Shown: positions 21,322 to 52,386 of the stretch, one piece after another
Numbering within the stretch: the stretch's first letter is position 1
Layout of the letters: each line of letters opens with the position of its first letter
NCBI RefSeq assembly: GCF_013410665.1
Contig: NZ_JACCFM010000001.1
Location: forward strand, 682,001 to 746,000
DNA length: 64,000 nucleotides
Reading direction: 5' to 3'
From: Leifsonia psychrotolerans
Lineage (GTDB): Bacteria > Actinomycetota > Actinomycetes > Actinomycetales > Microbacteriaceae
Notes under the pieces: generated by a model
The model's input: the letters and a program-made list of their open reading frames with translations, nothing else
Databases searched by the model: none
Told to the model about the DNA's origin: nothing
Made by a program: the position numbers and the translations under genes

Positions 21322-23103
21322 TTAGAACGGCGGTTTGTCGGGCAGTGGGGGTTCGGGTTGTGAGTGTCCGATGTAGCCGGTGGGGGTGCTGACGGTGACG
21401 GTGCCGTCGGCTGCTTTGGCGTATCGGATTTTGGAGTGGGTTTTGATTCGGTGGTCGGGGCTGCAGAACGGGAGCAGGTTGGCCAGGTTGGTTGGGCCGT
21501 GATCGCGTTCCCATTCGTGAACGTGGTCGATTTCGGCGGTTACGGCTAACCGGGTGCAGCCCTCGGCGGCGCAGGTGCCATAGATCGCGGCGAGCATGTC
21601 GCGTTGGGCTTTTGTGGGCCGGTATCGGGTGCGGTCGAAGTTGAGGATGGTGCCGTTGATCGGGTCGATGCCGACCCGGCGAAACGCGGGTGCGTCGTCG
21701 AAGAGTTGGGCTGCGGTGACGCTGTCGATCGGACCGTAGCCGTGCAGCACGGCCGGCTGGTCACTTTTCTGCAACAGGCCGAGGATCGGCACCAGCAGCA
21801 GCGGGCGCACTTTCGCGGCGGTCGGGGTGCCGTCACCGGCCAGCCAGGCCACGAACAGGTCGGCCCGGATCTGATCCCGGGAACGACGCGGGTGCCGGGC
21901 GGCGGCGTCCTGCCCGGCCCGGGCAACAAATTCGTGGGTTTCGGGGCCGGTCAGGCCGGCCCGCCGGACGGAACGGCGGGCGGCGGCCCGGGCGGTGGCG
22001 ACGGCCTGTGTGCGTGCGGCGGTTTCGTCGCGGGCGATGCGTTTGGCTGTCGCGTTCAGTCGGGCGGTGATGCGGATGGCGTCGACGCCGCTGATGAACG
22101 CGCTCAACCAGGCCATCCCGTTCGGGGCCGGCTCAACACTCACCCTTCGTTCGGTCACGTCGCGGGCGTGGCGTTGTTCGGCCGGTTCGGCGCGGAGCCG
22201 GTCGGCCAGGGTGCGGGCCTTCTGCCGGAACACACCCGGCGTGAGCCTGGGGCCCTTGAGTGCCAGTTCGGTGTCGTAGGTGGCCACCCGGGCCGGGTCG
22301 GTCAGACCGGTCAGGAAGTGCACCGCAGCACTGGCCTGCGGGTAGCCGATCAGGCCGGCCTGGAACAACGCCCACACTTGTGGCAGGGACGCGGTGAGCA
22401 CGTGGCCCTCGTGGGCGCGGGTGCGGACCAGTTCCGGGGTGAGGTGTAAGTGCAGGGCGGTGTCGAGGGCCGCGCAGCGCACAGCCAGGTCGACGGCGTC
22501 GGGTTGCAGCAGCCCGGATTCGGTGAGGTAGATGCTCGGGTTCTGTCGGGCCATCTCGATCACCGTCGTCAACGCCTCCAGGTGCGCGGCCATCGCCCGG
22601 TTCGCTTCCCGCGCCGCCACCTCGGCCGCGCCGATCGCAGTTCCGATCACCGCGACGGCTGTCGCCGTGGCCGCCACCCCGATCGATGTCGGCAAGAAGC
22701 TGACCAGATCCAGTGGGGCCGGGCCGGGCTCGGGACGGGAGGCGAGCGGGAACGCCGGACCGGCCGGGGACCCGGTTGCGGAATCGGCCATGGAACCGGC
22801 TGGCAGCTCGAGCCTGAGGCCGGCCGCCGGAGTGAGCCTGAGCTCGGCCGCAGAATTGAAGCCAGGGATGGTATCGAACCGAGGATCGTACTCCGCACCC
22901 AGCGCGAGGATGTTTGCCAGCCAGGCCTCATAGATCGGCCGCAACTCCGGCGCGTCCCACTCGGGCTCGTCCCACTCGGGCTCGTCCCGCCTCGCATCAG
23001 AGGCCGCAACCGCCCCCTCGTCCCGGGCTTGCCACTCCGTGGTGCTGAGCTTTCTCAGCGGGTCGAAGGGGGTTTGTCTCGGGACTTCTAGCGGGTCATC
23101 CAT
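21322..23103 (-). CDS. DUF222 and HNH endonuclease domain protein (13E12 family)
   Basis: 593 aa. A variable acidic N-terminus precedes the helical DUF222 region (about 130-420, with TRAHEGHVLTASLPQVWALFQAGLIGYPQASAA) and a C-terminal HNH nuclease fold: GCTRLAVTAEIDHVHEW, then NLLPFCSPDHRIKTH. This is the family found in mycobacterial REP13E12 elements, usually in many copies; its role is unknown. ATG 23103 is 6 nt after a TAAAAT -10 box, so it may be translated from a leaderless mRNA. A paralogue at 46764 is disrupted by a mobile element. Confidence 0.9.
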   Translation of the reverse strand: MDDPLEVPRQTPFDPLRKLSTTEWQARDEGAVAASDARRDEPEWDEPEWDAPELRPIYEAWLANILALGAEYDPRFDTIPGFNSAAELRLTPAAGLRLELPAGSMADSATGSPAGPAFPLASRPEPGPAPLDLVSFLPTSIGVAATATAVAVIGTAIGAAEVAAREANRAMAAHLEALTTVIEMARQNPSIYLTESGLLQPDAVDLAVRCAALDTALHLHLTPELVRTRAHEGHVLTASLPQVWALFQAGLIGYPQASAAVHFLTGLTDPARVATYDTELALKGPRLTPGVFRQKARTLADRLRAEPAEQRHARDVTERRVSVEPAPNGMAWLSAFISGVDAIRITARLNATAKRIARDETAARTQAVATARAAARRSVRRAGLTGPETHEFVARAGQDAAARHPRRSRDQIRADLFVAWLAGDGTPTAAKVRPLLLVPILGLLQKSDQPAVLHGYGPIDSVTAAQLFDDAPAFRRVGIDPINGTILNFDRTRYRPTKAQRDMLAAIYGTCAAEGCTRLAVTAEIDHVHEWERDHGPTNLANLLPFCSPDHRIKTHSKIRYAKAADGTVTVSTPTGYIGHSQPEPPLPDKPPF

Positions 23104-46107: not shown

Positions 46108-46275
46108 CTGGTGCCTGTGGGTTCGCCGGTCGGCGAGCCCGACCAGCCGCCCGCGGTCGGCCCCGACCAGCCGCCCTCGGTCGGCCCCGACCCTTCGCTG
46201 ATTGAGCTCCCCTCCCGCTGATTGAGCTCCCCTCCCGCTGATCGAGCCCACCCCGCCGATCGACCCCACCCCGCT

Positions 46276-46343
46276 GATCGAGCCTGTCGAGATCCCGCGA
46301 GCCATCCTCGAGACCGTGGACCGAGGTCTCGACAAGCTCGACC
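46276..46343. repeat. Dispersed hairpin repeat, copy 1
   Basis: GATCGAGCCTGTCGAGATC (46276-46294) and GGTCTCGACAAGCTCGACC (46325-46343) form inverted arms around a 30-bp centre. Copy 2 is 210 bp downstream, and a related copy lies at 58277-58344. Confidence 0.75.
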
Positions 46344-46377
46344 CACGGCTCGGTGATCGCCCCGCACCCCTCCCGCC

Positions 46378-46491
46378 GATCGACCCCGCCCCGCCGATCG
46401 ACCCCGCCCCGCTGATCGACCCCACCCCGCCGATCGACCCCACCCCGCTGATCGACCCCACCCCGCTGATCGACCGCACCCCGCTGATCGA
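46378..46491. repeat. 18-bp tandem array, seven units
   Basis: GATCGA recurs exactly every 18 bp at 46378, 46396, 46414, 46432, 46450, 46468 and 46486. The units are GATCGACCCC(G/A)CCCCGC(C/T) with a few changes. It joins the two 110-bp duplicates. Units lack the spacer/repeat structure of a CRISPR. Confidence 0.88.
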
Positions 46492-46553
46492 GCCTGTCGA
46501 GATCCCGCGAGCCATCCTCGAGACCGCGGCGCGAGGTCTCGACAAGCTCGACC
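46486..46553. repeat. Dispersed hairpin repeat, copy 2
   Basis: It has the same 19-bp arms as copy 1 (46486-46504 and 46535-46553), within the second 110-bp duplicate. The central part differs at a few positions. Confidence 0.75.
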
Positions 46554-46763
46554 CACGGCTCGGTGATCGCCCCGCACCCCTCCCGCCGATCGAGCCACCC
46601 CGCTGATCGAGCTCGTCGAGATCCCGTGAGCCACCCTCGAGACCATGCCCGCGGTTCCGGCCGGTTCAAGTTCTCGATCCCTCCACAGACACAGGTACTA
46701 GAAGTTATGCACTGATACTGAGAAAAGCTCGTAATCATGTTCGTTCTTTGGGAGAATGGAGCT

Positions 46764-48377
46764 ATGTCAATCACTTCCCCACCCACCGTCTCCGCCCCGG
46801 AGCCGACACCCGCCCCGGGTACGTCGGCACCGACCGCGGCCATGGTGCTGGCGGCGGTCGAACAGGCCCGCTCTTCTCTGGCGGTGCTCGGCACGGTCAG
46901 CCCTGACCGGTTCACCGACGACGACCTGCTCGGTGTGCTCGGTGCGTTCGAAGGCGTGGGCCGGCTGGTTGATGCGGGACGGGTGGCTGTGGCGGCGACG
47001 GTCGAGGAACGCTCCGGCCGGTGGCTGGGCCGGGACTCCCTCGCGGCGAAGCGGGGCTGCACGAGTGGCATCGACCTGATCACCCGGGTCACCCGCATTT
47101 CCGGCCGGGAAGCGAAACGCCGTAGCGCCCTCGGTCTGCGAATGCGGGACACGCAGCACGTCGGAACGATCATCCCGGCGCTGTTCCCCACGGTGGGTGC
47201 CGCGGTCGCTTCGGGGTTGCTGGGGGTGGATGCGGCGGAGGTGATCATGTCCGGTCTGGCCGAGATCTCCCCGCGCGTTGCCCCCGATGATCTTGCGGCT
47301 GCGGAACGCGCTCTGGTGTCTGCGGCGACGGGCACGATCACGGCCGAGAATGAGGGTGAGCCGGGCGCGGGCTTTGCGTTCTCGGCGGACTCACTGCGGG
47401 TGCAGATGTTGCAGTGGCAGGCGGCGCTGGACCCCGACGGGGTGGCGCCGAATGAGACTGAGGTTGAGGCGACGAGCACGATCAGTTTCGGCCGCTTCAA
47501 AGACGGCATCTACCCGGTGCGGGGCGGGGTGACTCCTGATCTCTACGGAATCATGAACCTCACCTTCGACGCGTTCATCGCGGCCCGCAAAACCCCCGCA
47601 TTCCCGACCGCCGCCGAACAAGCCCGCGACCAGGCACGCGACGACCGCGCCGAGCTAGACGGACAAGACCTGAACGACGACCACAACCTGAACGACGAGC
47701 ACGGCCGCGAGCACGGCCGCGAGCACGGCCGCGAGCACGACCGCTCCGAGCACGACGACCGCGCCGAGCAGGATGCCCACGACGGTCCCGACGGACACGA
47801 CCACGAGCACGACTGCGATGAACACGACGACCATGACCATGACCACGACCACGACCACGACCATGACGACCACGGCCAGGGTCCAGCCTCAGCCGAGGCT
47901 CTTCTTCCCGGGTCGGCCGGGCATGAGTTCGATGACGTCGACACCCGTACCGCCGGTGAGAAGCGGGCCGATATTCTGCGCGGCATGTTCACCCAGCTGG
48001 CCCAAGCCGATAACACCCCCAGCATTGGTGGTGCACCGCCGACGGTGGTGGTGCATGTGAACGTGAACGATATTGAAGCCGGGCGCGGTGTCGGCTGGAT
48101 CGACGGCGTCGACGCCCCCATCTCGCTTCGCACGGTCGATCAGATGATGTGTGCCGGAGGGACCCAAACGGTTCTGTTCGGTCCGAACGGTGAGGTTCTG
48201 ACGCTGACCGATCCGCAACGACTGTTCAACCGTGCCCAACGCCGGGCGATCCTCGCACGCGACGGCGGCTGCGGCGTTCCCGGCTGCGATGCCCCCGCAC
48301 AGTGGCTCGAATTTCATCACGTGATCCCCTGGAGCAAAGGCGGCGTCACCGAAGTCGACAACGGCGTCAATCGCTAA
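46764..48377 (+). pseudogene. DUF222/HNH endonuclease gene, 5' part, cut by a mobile element
   Basis: The gene proper runs to 48361. It has the DUF222 region (about 25-280), a Asp/His-rich low-complexity segment (about residues 290-375, with runs of DH) and the start of the HNH fold (CGVPGCDAPAQWLEFHHVIPWSKGG). It then stops at 48377 after VDNGVNR, before the final HNH histidines. The missing end (LCWRHHHTIE) lies at 51901-52068 in the same strand and frame. Joined at AA 48360/51901 the protein would be 587 aa, close to the intact 593-aa paralogue at 21322. ATG 46764 is 6 nt after GAGAAT. The truncated product probably lacks nuclease activity. Confidence 0.93.
48360..48377. other. Left attachment junction (attL)
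   Basis: AA core (48360-48361), then CGGCGT and the arm CAATCGCTAA (48368-48377). The arm is the inverted partner of TTAGTGATTG at the right end (9 of 10 matches). Left of the core is host gene sequence. Confidence 0.75.
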
Positions 48378-48383
48378 TACGAC

Positions 48384-49091
48384 CTAAGACACGGTCTCTA
48401 GTTCAGCGCGCTCGATCCAGCGAGCGAGCAAACTGAATGCGGCTAGCGCCTCGATGGCATCTGCGTCCCTAAAGCTGTGTTCATCCGGCTCGACGTGGTT
48501 GACGACATTTCGTACCGCTGAGAAAAGGCCCTGTCCGAAGTTCCCCGCGCCTACATGCATGTCCTTGAAGAGGCTGACGTTCGACGGATCGCACAATCGC
48601 AATCGCGGCACGTTTGGTTTGGGGGACTCGGGACTAAAACTCTCGCGCACGAGTTGGCCCTCTCCGATTTCCTTCCTGTTGACCTTGCGCTGCAACCGGG
48701 AGTTTACGTTGATGGCAGCAGCCCACACCGCAGCGTCGTGGTTGCCACTCGTCCAATGCGGTCTCGCTGCTTCCCATACCCATGGGTGAAGGGACTTGCC
48801 CTCGACAAGCGGTGGAGGGTCGCCCTCTGCGCCCAGTTTTTCTCGCGCCTCGTCGCCCTCGGTCAGTTCCCAGATCAGGCGTCTGACGAGAGATTCTCCA
48901 GCCCAGCGTGGGCGCTCACGGTCGATGACTTCGGCGATAGCCAGCACTGAGTTTTGAGCGTTGCTGCGCTCCTCGACCGACCCCCGCAGCCGGGTCTTCT
49001 TATTCGGCTTGACCTCTTCCGGTGGGAGCGGCACTCGTTCGTGCAGCGACAGATACAGGTCAAGCTGTTTCAAGGCCCAGTCAACGTCCAT
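48384..49091 (-). CDS. TIGR02391/Ymh family protein with HEPN-like motif
   Basis: 235 aa. The C-terminal half has the TIGR02391 (Hypoth_Ymh) pattern: LHPWVWEAARPHWTSGNHDAAVWAAAINVNSRLQ, GQGLFSAVRNVVNHVE and a final helix ALAAFSLLARWIERAEL. RNVVNH (194-199) fits the RX4H motif of HEPN RNases. Relatives occur in mobile elements and near defence genes. The N-terminal 95 residues are not recognised. It is the only cargo-like gene of the element and sits at its left edge; a host-defence or toxin role is inferred. Confidence 0.7.
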   Translation of the reverse strand: MDVDWALKQLDLYLSLHERVPLPPEEVKPNKKTRLRGSVEERSNAQNSVLAIAEVIDRERPRWAGESLVRRLIWELTEGDEAREKLGAEGDPPPLVEGKSLHPWVWEAARPHWTSGNHDAAVWAAAINVNSRLQRKVNRKEIGEGQLVRESFSPESPKPNVPRLRLCDPSNVSLFKDMHVGAGNFGQGLFSAVRNVVNHVEPDEHSFRDADAIEALAAFSLLARWIERAELETVS

Positions 49092-49496
49092 GACAGCACG
49101 CTATCGGTCTATCGACCGCGAGAATCTATTCCCACCCGTGTCGCGCCCGGCGGGCGCGCCTTTACTTGAATCTGCAACATAACTTGGGAGCGCGGTAGCG
49201 CGATCCGAAGGCAAGGTTTCGACGGCCACAGGCCGTCGGAACCGCGGCAGCTTGGAAGATGCTGGGAACGAATGACAACGCTGCACGGCTTCCGGTATGA
49301 ATGTTTTATACATAAGGACGCGGCGCTTGAGGCGTTGCATAAATTAGATTCTCTATAGATACCTGGGACCTCAGTGAGGTTGAGCGGCGCTAGAAGGCCA
49401 GTGTCCCCGCTCGAATTGAAACGACTAGAGGCCAGACCCGGTTGAAATCCGGGTGCTGAAGCGCGCGTCGGTCCTGCTGTTGTCGACGGCCCTTCG
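49092..49496. other. Structured non-coding region of the element, possible replication origin
   Basis: No gene with support in 405 bp. Inverted repeats: CGCGCCC-GGC-GGGCGCG (49142-49158); a 13-bp stem with one mismatch and an ACA loop (49215-49243); CCTCAGTGAGG (49369-49379); and ACCCGG-7 nt-CCGGGT (49436-49454). An AT-richer stretch lies at 49300-49360. Lying directly upstream of an HUH Rep gene, it may hold the double-strand origin and the Rep promoter. Confidence 0.5.
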
Positions 49497-50309
49497 GTGG
49501 TCCCTGTCGGCTTCGAGCACTGGTCCCTTATGCTTCCCAACTCCTCACAGTCATATCTGCGAACTCTTGTGCGCCCGGATGCCGGATGGCATTTCAGTCT
49601 CTATCCGGATTCCGGAGAGGGCGGCGGGTCATTCCAGTACTCGGTACGCCGAGTGCCGGAGTATGTTGCTCCCGGCTCGGCGCGGGATCCGGAACGCGCG
49701 GCTGCCGAGGCCGGGCGAAGGGCTCGAGCGCGTCTGCGCCGGTATTGCGCGGCGAACCGGCTGAACCGTTTGGGAACCTTGACCTACGCGGGTGCGGGCA
49801 ATCATGACCCGGCGCAACTGCGTGAGCATCTTGCCGGATTCTTCCGCCAGCTACGAGATGCGTTGGGCGGGGCAGCATTGCCCTATGCGTGGGTGCCGGA
49901 GTGGCACAAGTCCGGGCACGGCCTGCACGCGCACTTCGCGGTCGGACGGTTCATCAAACGCTCGCTGATTGTTGATTCCTGGCCGCATGGCTTTGTGCAC
50001 ATCAAGCTGCTCGGAGATCTCCCAGTCGGCTCCGGTTCCTTGTCGCAGGCGCGGCGCGCGGCGGGGTATCTGTCGAAGTACGTTGCAAAAACATTCGCCG
50101 ATCCGACCGTGCGGGATCTGGGCTTGCACCGCTATGACGTGGCTCAAGGGTTTCAGCCGGAGGTGATGCGCCTGTCCGCCTCGTCCTCGGATGCGGTGAT
50201 CGCGGAAGCGTCCGAGCTGATGAGTAGTGCCCCGCTCACGCGGTGGTCGTCGGCGGAGAACGCCGATTGGCAGGGTGCCCCGGCAATTTGGGCGCAGTGG
50301 GGTCGATGA
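49497..50309 (+). CDS. HUH-type rolling-circle replication initiator (Rep)
   Basis: 270 aa. Motif I LGTLTYA (92-98), motif II GLHAHF (HUH histidines 144 and 146) and motif III GYLSKYVAK with Tyr191 and Lys194 are in the order expected of rolling-circle Rep proteins. It would nick one strand at an origin and remain bound to the 5' end. GTG 49497 or ATG 49530 may be the start; neither has a strong ribosome-binding site. It overlaps the next small gene (ATGA). Confidence 0.8.
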   Translation: MVPVGFEHWSLMLPNSSQSYLRTLVRPDAGWHFSLYPDSGEGGGSFQYSVRRVPEYVAPGSARDPERAAAEAGRRARARLRRYCAANRLNRLGTLTYAGAGNHDPAQLREHLAGFFRQLRDALGGAALPYAWVPEWHKSGHGLHAHFAVGRFIKRSLIVDSWPHGFVHIKLLGDLPVGSGSLSQARRAAGYLSKYVAKTFADPTVRDLGLHRYDVAQGFQPEVMRLSASSSDAVIAEASELMSSAPLTRWSSAENADWQGAPAIWAQWGR

Positions 50310-50512
50310 TGGGACTTGACCTGGATGCGGTGCGGGCGTGGGTCGAGAGAACCTGCGCGGCTCAAGGGGTGCCGGTGTTCGTGGCCGATGCCGCCGTTGT
50401 GGGCCGGGTGGGGACCCTGTTGGGGTCCGGGGCCCCGGCGCGTGCCCCGGAGGGGCGAGCCGGGGTGCCGGGCCTCACAGGTTCCAGACGGGCACGATCC
50501 GGTTCGGATTGA
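50306..50512 (+). CDS. Small protein downstream of Rep
   Basis: 68 aa: it opens MMGLDLDAVRAWVERTCAAQ, followed by a GVPVFVADAAVVGRVGTLL stretch and a basic, disordered tail. ATG 50306 overlaps the Rep stop, implying translational coupling. I do not recognise a known domain. Similar short genes lie between Rep and recombinase in other actinobacterial elements as far as I recall. It overlaps the recombinase gene tail to tail by 38 bp. Confidence 0.6.
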   Translation: MMGLDLDAVRAWVERTCAAQGVPVFVADAAVVGRVGTLLGSGAPARAPEGRAGVPGLTGSRRARSGSD

Positions 50513-51875
50513 ACTTCCCACCCTTGACCACCGCTGGATTGATCACCGCATGATCGAGCACGGCGGCGACGATCGCGGCCTGCCGTTCCAGGTTCATCTC
50601 ATCCCACCGTTCGCGTAATTCCTGGCCGTGGCCGACGATCCCTTCCAGTGCTGTCGTTCCGGTGATCTGGGAGAGCTGCCGGTCGGTGGTTTTGATGCGG
50701 TGATCGAGGGGCTCCCGGGCTGCCTTCCACTCAGCGCGGGAGATCTCGCCGTCCGCCCACATCTCCGCTAGTTCGGTCAGTTTTGCTTGGTCGCGGTCCA
50801 GCTGCTCGAGTAGTTCGCTGTGCCGGGCATCATTGGCAAGCCTGCCGGTGAGGGTGTCGCCCATCTGTGGTGTGTCCAGCCGGTAGAGCACGGCGGCGGC
50901 GATCCATTCCTCTACCGGTGGGGCCGTCACCGTGACGCCGCCGCAGCCGCGATGATCCGGCCCCGACAGGCACACGTAGCGGCGCTCGAACTCCCGCGGA
51001 GAGGAGAAGAGTCGGCCTCCGCATTTGCCGCAGCGGAGCATCCCGCTGAGGAGGTAGCTGCGCGGGGTGCGTCGCCCCGTTGCGATCTTGGCCGCGAGCA
51101 CGTTCAAGAGCTGTTGACGCTGCTCCACAGTGATGATCGGATCCCAGATGGCCGGTCCGACCACTTCCCCGAGATGGGAGCGCAGGCCGGCAATCCGCGG
51201 GGACTTTAGGATCATGCGCACCGTGCTCGTGCGCCACTCCGCGCCGGCGCTGGTCGGAATGCGTTCCGCGTCCAACCAGGTCGCAATCGACCGGATTGAT
51301 TCTCCGGCCAGGACTCGGCGCACAATTTGCTGAATCAGCTCGGCCTCGACCGGGTTCACGGTGATCTTGTCGGCCTCGTACCCGAACGGGCGGTTCGGGC
51401 CGCCGCCCGGTTTTCCGGCTTCGGCGTTCTGCCGTGCCTTGCGGCGCAGGCGCTCCGACTTCCGACCGGATTCCTTCGCCGCGAATGCCGCAAAGATCCG
51501 GGCCATGAATAGACCGTCATCGTTGCCCAAGTCCACATCGGCGGTCACCGTCGCGAGCTGGCGCAACCCGGCGCCCTCGCAGACTTCGACGAACTGCTCG
51601 AGTTCGACCGGGCGGCGGGTCAGCCGGTCCAGGTTGTAGACGATCACCGCATCCCGTGCACCGGCTTGAATGTCCGAAACCATCCGGTGATACGCTGGAC
51701 GGCTCTTGCCGGAGTAGGCAGAAATGTCGTTGTCGACGTACTCCTCGGCAACCGTCCAGCCCCGCTCATGTGCCAAACGTCGGCAGTCCTCGAGTTGACG
51801 GCTGATACCGAGTGCTTGCCCGGTCGGGTCGGAGGAGATGCGGGCGTAGATCGCAGCATTGCGAGGCTCAGTCAT
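50475..51875 (-). CDS. Large serine recombinase/integrase
   Basis: 466 aa. Resolvase domain: AAIYARISSD with catalytic Ser14 and Arg12, then YNLDRLTRRPVELEQF and AFAAKESGRKSERLRRK. A recombinase domain follows (PFGYEADKITVNPVEAELIQQIVRRVLAGES), then a zinc ribbon (CGKCGGRLF ... CLSGPDHRGCGG) and a coiled-coil region near 355-395. It needs no host factor and should catalyse attP x attB joining. Its start is 26 bp from the right end of the element, the usual position next to att. Confidence 0.95.
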   Translation of the reverse strand: MTEPRNAAIYARISSDPTGQALGISRQLEDCRRLAHERGWTVAEEYVDNDISAYSGKSRPAYHRMVSDIQAGARDAVIVYNLDRLTRRPVELEQFVEVCEGAGLRQLATVTADVDLGNDDGLFMARIFAAFAAKESGRKSERLRRKARQNAEAGKPGGGPNRPFGYEADKITVNPVEAELIQQIVRRVLAGESIRSIATWLDAERIPTSAGAEWRTSTVRMILKSPRIAGLRSHLGEVVGPAIWDPIITVEQRQQLLNVLAAKIATGRRTPRSYLLSGMLRCGKCGGRLFSSPREFERRYVCLSGPDHRGCGGVTVTAPPVEEWIAAAVLYRLDTPQMGDTLTGRLANDARHSELLEQLDRDQAKLTELAEMWADGEISRAEWKAAREPLDHRIKTTDRQLSQITGTTALEGIVGHGQELRERWDEMNLERQAAIVAAVLDHAVINPAVVKGGKFNPNRIVPVWNL

Positions 51876-51884
51876 ACGGTCATA

Positions 51885-51902
51885 TTAGTGATTGATGCAC
51901 AA
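51885..51902. other. Right attachment junction (attR)
   Basis: TTAGTGATTG (51885-51894), ATGCAC, then the AA core (51901-51902), followed by host gene sequence TGGTGTGGCG. Rejoined with the left end, the element's attP has arms of 16 bp that match at 12 positions about the AA. Confidence 0.75.
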
Positions 51903-52068
51903 TGGTGTGGCGTTGTGTTGGCGACATCATCACACCATCGAAACGTCCGGCTGGGAGATCCTCATGGTCAACGGCCGCCCCCAAGTGAAAGCCCCGGCCT
52001 GGATCGACCCGAGCCGCACCTGGCGCGACGCCAACCGCCACCGCACCGACACCCACCGCCGCAACTGA
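51903..52068 (+). pseudogene. DUF222/HNH endonuclease gene, 3' part
   Basis: Fifty-five codons plus stop (first codon begins at 51901 in the core). It reads NGVALCWRHHHTIETSGWEI and ends THRRN. The CWRHHH segment supplies the HNH histidines missing from the 5' part. It has no start of its own and continues the frame of 46764-48361 exactly if the element is removed. Confidence 0.9.
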
Positions 52069-52206
52069 CGCGCGGCCGCGACTGACCTGCCGCGACTGAC
52101 CTGCCGCGACTGACCTGCCGCGACTGACCTGCCGCGACTGACCTGCCGCGACTGACCTGCCGCGACTGACGCTCCGCGACTGACGCGCAGCGACTTACCT
52201 TCCGAG
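52069..52206. repeat. 14-bp tandem array, eight to nine units, after the HNH gene
   Basis: ACTGA recurs every 14 bp from 52081 to 52179, with a last degenerate unit at 52193. The unit CCGCGACTGACCTG resembles the end of the HNH gene itself (GCCGCAACTGACGC), as if the stop-codon region had been amplified. The following stretch to about 52380 shows no gene. Confidence 0.88.
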
Positions 52207-52386
52207 GCTGATGCGCGACTGACTCCCATCGCGACTGAACCCGCGCGACAGGGCTCCGGCGCGCGGAGCAAAGCTCCCAGTGGGTGTCGGCGGCACGGCA
52301 TCCACCGTTCATCGTCACAGCACCCCGGCACAAGAGGCAAGCTGGGAGTGTAGCGAGGTGTGCCAGGCATGAAAGAAAAACGGTGC

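Follow-up and report, generated by a model that had tools for sequence, protein, structure and literature searches.

A probable 3.5-kb integrating element with a serine integrase, a rolling-circle Rep and one variable cargo slot in a multicopy DUF222/HNH gene of Leifsonia psychrotolerans

Our analysis of a 64,000-nucleotide stretch of the Leifsonia psychrotolerans chromosome (the window; positions 682001-746000 of a one-contig genome of 3,820,245 bp) found an element of 3,541 bp, at window positions 48362-51902, inserted in a DUF222/HNH gene (Table 1). It is very probably an integrating mini-element that targets HNH genes and is made up of a three-gene core and a single cargo slot, the core being int (a large serine integrase), rep (a rolling-circle replication initiator) and a small conserved open reading frame (ORF); the element would follow a cycle driven by Int and Rep and would depend on a helper. 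The original prediction for this DNA had described a compact serine-recombinase element that splits an HNH gene and whose removal restores the frame, and our results bear this out; the HUH-type Rep, its origin, the 68-aa ORF, the swappable cargo and the 25-copy family to which the target gene belongs were not part of that description.

The two gene pieces and the recombinase were found at the predicted places, as judged by reading frames and Pfam. Read from the ATG at 46737, the frame of the 5' piece continues into the element and stops at 48377, whereas joining the two halves at the shared AA gives 596 codons from that ATG, or, counted from an internal ATG at 46764, the 587 codons originally reported. 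The paralogue at 21322, which had been offered as the yardstick for this length, lies on the minus strand; it is a diverged member of the DUF222/HNH family that gave no tblastn match at 1e-5, and we dropped it as too distant, close copies being available elsewhere in the genome. A search for uninterrupted homologues recovered 24 copies in the same genome, and each of them carries GTCGACAATGGTGTGGC, the junction that the joined flanks predict (24/24). The bounds of the element are therefore 48362-51902, and a chance alignment of gene pieces is ruled out. The copy number of 25 (25 DNA matches, the interrupted copy included) is a lower bound, only part of the candidates having been scored. With at least 25 interchangeable target copies in the genome, redundancy would make one broken copy cheap, which suggests a way for a gene-breaking insertion to be harmless. 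The members of this host family (loci L132-L155 and the window gene) are 86-96% identical at the DNA level in their main aligned pieces. They are surrounded by GATCGA-rich repeats and form a 13E12-like repeat family; GATCGA is dense upstream of the interrupted gene (12 in 0.54 kb at window positions 46110-46650, against 1.8 per kb in the window), and tandem GCGACTGACCTGCC repeats follow directly after the HNH stop codon, at 52069-52230.

Table 1. Features of the element and of the interrupted gene, in window coordinates
Feature	Position	Strand	Description and evidence
Interrupted DUF222/HNH gene, 5' part	46737..48361	+	Pfam DUF222 3.4e-20; 89-98% protein identity (aligned pieces) to the 24 intact genome copies
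attL	48337..48384	.	Host half ...GTCGAC, core AA (48360-48361), element arm CGGCGTCAATCGCTAATACGACC
Cargo gene, 235 aa	48384..49091	-	Hypoth_ymh (HEPN-like); Pfam PF09509 1.2e-21
GC hairpin	49142..49158	+	7-bp stem, 3-nt loop; abuts the nick motif
Conserved origin motif, 27 nt	49160..49186	+	CTTNACTTGAANNNGCAACRTAACTYG; predicted nick site lies between 49168 (G) and 49169 (A)
Second, strong hairpin of the origin region	49215..49243	+	13-bp stem; DNA fold z = -4.55
rep, rolling-circle replication initiator, 259 aa	49530..50309	+	PF23343 6.9e-16; phrog_3419 4.7e-18
Small conserved ORF, 68 aa	50306..50512	+	Shares ATGA, as start codon, with the stop of rep
int, large serine integrase, 466 aa	50475..51875	-	Resolvase, Recombinase and zinc ribbon domains (Pfam, PHROG profiles)
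attR	51878..51925	.	Element arm GGTCATATTAGTGATTGATGCAC, core AA (51901-51902), host half TGGTGTGGCG...
Interrupted HNH gene, 3' part	51903..52068	+	TGGTGTGGCGTTGTGTTGG... to TGA; encodes LCWRHHHTIE...stop

The element belongs to a widespread family, for which we could find no published description in the open-access literature (subscription journals lie mostly outside this coverage). A scan of genome contigs yielded 73 loci that encode a related integrase; this Rep is present at 31 of them as well, and the convergent pair of Int and Rep was found in 45 non-redundant loci, nine duplicate loci having been removed before counting. An HNH 3' remnant lies by the integrase in 29 of the 45 (25 canonical and 4 degenerate), so that elements of this family are found in other DUF222/HNH genes. 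When samples of genomes were searched with Rep alone, a match was present in 11 of 396 from the order, 10 of 394 from the class and 5 of 396 from the phylum (own genome included). Of the 22 Reps detected in this way with the own genome omitted, 19 adjoin such an integrase (one only 27% identical), and the remaining three are broken or truncated. The core of int, rep and small ORF recurs across Actinomycetota and in metagenome-assembled genomes (MAGs) labelled Acidobacteria and Dormibacterota, and at E <= 0.001 there were 2,879 homologues of Rep and 1,747 of Int among the 7,998 candidates scored per search.

Several lines of evidence identify Int as a large serine integrase: its domains, its catalytic serine and arginines (S14, R84 and R87 are among the invariant columns in an alignment of 23 sequences), the identical central dinucleotide of its sites and a symmetric attP. 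Its profile matches solved phage serine integrases, and the integrases of Bxb1, A118 and phiC31 have the same domain order, an attP of about 50 bp with symmetric arms and a short shared core; unlike these, Int belongs to an element of 3.5 kb that encodes its own Rep and has no phage families, and the nearest phage integrase compared is 38% identical. Joining the element ends gives an attP that is a 48-bp near-palindrome centred on AA. The available part of one source describes serine-integrase attP sites as about 50 bp long, with half-sites about a central dinucleotide (PMC3783163), and the attP predicted here has the form that would be expected. Its arms are alike at 18/23 positions and those of the host site at 6/23, a comparison that is not circular because the place of the site is fixed by the empty copies. 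The genome's second large serine recombinase (locus L156, contig 1474000-1487000) is 37% identical to Int, and by eye a predicted DNA methylase-like ORF lies nearby.

The crossover falls in the codon preceding the last HNH histidines (VD|NGVALCWRHHH). Both halves of the HNH gene could be found by tblastn or motif, in the same orientation, in 22 loci (the window included; the Rep-less L039 excluded), and all 22 yield an uninterrupted HNH reading frame on joining at the shared dinucleotide, which is AA in 20 and GA in 2. The two users of GA (L013 and L034) are both from Lacisediminihabitans profunda, and their HNH gene carries an Asp codon at the crossover. When equal dinucleotides were required, the arm motif ranked the frame-giving position first in 20/22 loci and second in L052 and L180; the arm motif alone pointed to equal dinucleotides in 19/22, those at the best position being unequal in L007, L052 and L185. 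Element arms are alike at a mean of 13.3/24 positions and host arms at 6.7/24 across the 22 loci, a result that is partly circular because the positions were located with the arm motif itself. The elements so delimited are 3,363-5,935 bp long, and their pairs of integrase and att sites are candidate site-specific tools.

Rep has the HUH motif (HGLHAHF), the catalytic tyrosines (in YLSKYVAK) and the profile of an HUH rolling-circle Rep, with H133/H135 and Y180/Y184 invariant in 20 sequences, and we take its two-tyrosine signature to fit nicking of the phiX174/pC194 type. A search for a solved structure related to Rep by sequence found none. The origin pattern CTTNACTTGAANNNGCAACRTAACTCG, with at most 3 mismatches, is present in 39/48 Rep loci against 0/42 Rep-less loci (whole loci, both strands, truncated contigs included); 35 elements carry it within 1 kb upstream of rep, and it occurs once in the own genome. 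Its ACTTG|A is similar to CTTG^A, the site nicked in origins of the phiX174/pC194 type, on which the predicted nick position is based. The hairpin that abuts the motif keeps its form and not its sequence in many relatives, a perfect stem of at least 6 bp being found in 19/32 loci against 4% of shuffles. By eye, 12 of those 19 hairpins have a GNA triloop (p = 1e-10 against 4/64 triplets, base composition ignored), and loops of the GNA type stabilise DNA hairpins; the window's own first hairpin has the loop GGC, in a region not unusually stable by energy (z = -0.83). None of 200 shuffles was as stable as the second hairpin, and similar inverted repeats were seen by eye in several relatives. Together, the conserved motif and the hairpins are predicted to form the putative cognate double-strand origin of Rep.

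The small ORF has the consensus core LRAWVExSCAAQGVPVxVTDPxVxxRVGVLL (30 aligned sequences; mean column identity 29%), and its structural model has two predicted helices, with a block predicted local distance difference test (pLDDT) value of 81-93 over residues 1-40 and a predicted template modelling (pTM) score of 0.49. Scanned within the 89-aa ORF at 50243-50512, it had no Pfam, PHROG or NCBIfam match. We regard it as a candidate recombination directionality factor (RDF) or Rep-helper.

Between attL and the origin, most elements carry a gene or gene pair of their own. The product of the window's Hypoth_ymh gene has weak PADLOC matches to Aga_HEPN (5e-6) and PD-Lambda-3_B (8e-6), and is probably a defence protein of the abortive-infection type. 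In relatives, the slot holds an AbiL-like ATPase with DUF3226 (L005), RelA/SpoT (L008), DUF6414 (L009), TIR (L010, L181), an NTPase (L013), PIN_8 (L017), AIPR/AbiU (L020, L030), a TIR-like protein (L034), SIR2 (L062) or an NsnB-like ATPase (L024), and a STAND-like domain is also found among the cargo domains; the limits of the cargo are uncertain where the left boundary was not found (e.g., L024, L048, L049, L179, L182). The slot is a ready place to seek new anti-phage genes. The cargo proteins of L007, L179, L185, L196 and L198 share a GDNS..Q..GD start, with no Pfam or PADLOC match where scanned, and could possibly form an undescribed defence family.

Comparison of related elements suggests where the cargo may be exchanged. 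The nearest relative, L158 (Int 83% identical), has the same core in another HNH gene; between the origin and the right end its DNA is 79% identical to that of the window, and the cargo, which differs, gave no match. In 6/10 related pairs a homologous blastn piece starts at the beginning of the nick motif, its left end lying at 0 relative to the motif in L009/L010 and L006/L007, at -1 in L014/L017, at -9 in the window and L158, at -11 in L013/L018 and at -15 in L005/L006, although the piece that reaches the motif in L005/L006 and L006/L007 is short (<100 bases) and apart from the main piece. L009 and L010 are two elements of one Sinomonas genome, with cores 90% identical. Homology stops short of the nick motif in the remaining 4/10 pairs. 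In 7/7 close pairs, identity is at a near-random level (means 0.24-0.30) on the left side of the motif; immediately to its right it is also low (mean 0.41) in an ungapped count, for which the blastn pieces are the better guide. Because homology starts at the nick motif, cargo seems to be exchanged there, and because the hairpins differ in sequence despite matching cores, the hairpin seems to move together with the cargo. The simplest reading of these alignments is exchange of cargo at the origin, although any recombination selected at a functional border could look like exchange driven by Rep. More speculatively, the elements could act as cassette-exchange machines in which Rep swaps defence cassettes at the origin between co-resident elements and Int parks them in a many-copy HNH gene, with att at one end of the cargo and, at the other, a hairpin that belongs to the cassette plus the Rep nick site; we put this forward as a tentative proposal, somewhat short of an even chance.

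A putative life cycle can be drawn from this gene content. Int would join attP to attB in the codons just ahead of the last catalytic HNH histidines, and could later excise the element, perhaps with the 68-aa ORF as directionality factor, leaving a circle and a restored HNH gene. Rep would then nick the origin (predicted at ACTTG^AA) and copy the circle by a rolling-circle route, and after transfer through a helper, either a phage particle or a conjugative element, Int could insert the element again into any one of the 25 copies of the target. Between attL and the origin, the slot holds a single exchangeable gene or a short operon, often defence-like, which would pay for the element's keep; in the window, the HEPN-type cargo may protect the host. 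Translocase, relaxase, capsid and terminase families had no match among the six element ORFs scanned (Pfam, PHROG, NCBIfam); with no recognised translocase, relaxase or packaging gene, the element should therefore move with a helper. It shows how small a self-integrating and self-copying defence carrier could be: int, rep, a small ORF, an origin and cargo. It is very improbable, in our view, that the element is no longer mobile and represents a fixed, ancient insertion with a frozen integrase: it is present as a single copy and no excised form was detected, but its core ORFs are intact, its ends are exact, 24 target copies match the junction, and L158 combines the same core with other cargo in another gene.

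Various observations weigh against the reading of these elements as helper-dependent, HNH-targeting carriers of defence genes. In 16 of the 45 loci with Int and Rep no same-orientation HNH remnant was found, in some through a contig end. Relatives of the integrase without this Rep exist, and at 53-54% identity they occur on one Gordonia and one M. avium plasmid. Many cargo genes belong to no known family, and PADLOC recognised 12/31 cargo proteins against 3/20 neighbour-gene controls, an excess in the right direction and not significant alone (Fisher p = 0.06). As to the cycle, no terminal overlap that would indicate an excised circle was found in 8 short contigs, 4 of them Rep-bearing, and circular contigs were accordingly rejected as proof of excision; in L055 (4,272 bp), Int, Rep and a single cargo ORF take up the full length, as would be expected of a multi-copy element as much as of a circle. 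Although relatives of Rep and Int are many, Rep had no match in plasmid, phage and viral collections, and the exact origin pattern had none in the viral collection, the only one searched for it.

Among known systems, those closest to the element, by the accessible parts of the literature, are the phage-inducible chromosomal minimalist islands (PICMIs), which are closest in way of life, and the actinomycete integrative and conjugative elements (AICEs), such as Faln2929. The integrase class and the replication gene of PICMIs differ from those of the element. PICMIs of Vibrionaceae resemble the element in that excision and replication depend on a small core gene set, copying is rolling-circle-like and capsid-remodelling genes are absent, and they differ in host phylum and in a target that adjoins fis (PMC10803314). 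The same source judges PICMI replication consistent with a rolling circle, reports particles that suggest headful packaging without known packaging genes of their own, and describes protection of the host (PMC10803314). As a special case of our preferred explanation, the element could be a minimal phage satellite of this kind, packaged as rolling-circle concatemers by a helper phage. Its size, the absence of packaging families from the ORFs scanned, the combination of a replication gene, an integrase and defence-like cargo, and the PICMI parallels in replication, packaging and host protection all agree with this; against it, no helper was identified, neither Rep nor the exact origin pattern had an IMG/VR match, and the hallmark families AlpA, primase, terS and capsid had no match among the six ORFs. 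We consider it a serious possibility, a little short of probable. A prophage was rejected, phage structural families being absent from the ORFs scanned.

AICEs combine a TraB/FtsK translocase with RepSA, RepAM, RepPP or Prim-Pol, none of which we found in the element; it has a Rep of another type and a single slot for exchangeable cargo, and its length across the 22 loci with defined ends is 3.4-5.9 kb. Going by the part of its description available to us, Faln2929 of Frankia alni is like the element in its chromosomal integration, its rolling-circle Rep, its serine recombinase convergent with rep and its disruption of a putative endonuclease gene (PMC3218068), a likeness by description. The element could be a decayed AICE in which int, rep and passenger genes have survived the loss of the TraB/FtsK translocase, as might be suggested by two mycobacterial relatives (L028, L069) in which a RepSA-looking ORF was seen by eye. 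However, Rep matches PF23343 and reached only E = 0.059 with the RepSA profile, under the cut-off for that profile, and the same core of int, rep and small ORF with a conserved origin motif is found across Actinomycetota and in MAGs of other phyla. Decay would not reach the same end point so often, and we regard this origin as unlikely. Regarding integrative and mobilizable elements, no relaxase family was found among the element ORFs scanned.

The original prediction also drew a parallel with phiRv1 of M. tuberculosis, which we take to use a large serine integrase and a target in the 13E12 (DUF222/HNH) family. A separate lineage with DUF222/HNH genes as its usual target is upheld by our results, and the element does share this target; a close tie to phiRv1 is unsupported, the likeness being limited to the target gene family (phiRv1 was considered by description, not by integrase sequence). 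In the parts of the reports available, phiRv1 is 9.3 kb long, against 3,541 bp for the element, and its 12-bp core is listed (PMC3986857); it has been grouped with elements like the phage-inducible chromosomal islands (PICIs) by its capsid genes (PMC10654092). The PHROG scan found no match to phage head-gene families in the element.

The relatives of Int in mycobacteria, which are 54-58% identical to it and lack this Rep, form a clade of their own. In a midpoint-rooted tree of the 73 integrases, the Rep-less mycobacterial and Antrihabitans rows make up a clade of 25 (100/99) that is nested among Rep-bearing loci, which suggests that Rep was lost or replaced there. In 11/26 Mycobacteriaceae loci (L023-L072) the HNH 5' piece lies on the integrase side, that is, in reversed orientation, and by eye these genes look to be split at about the same codon; in L028 and L069 a SIR2-like gene and the RepSA-like ORF lie downstream. 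Some of the 45 loci with Int and Rep have moved. L042 and L066 were seen by eye to lie in HNH genes in the opposite orientation. Finally, L048 (7670-8001) and L198 (5090-5422; integrase-forward orientation) are sited, by eye, in the apparent Walker A region of a TadA/CpaF-type ATPase, so that genes for TadA/CpaF-like ATPases read like a second conserved-motif target.

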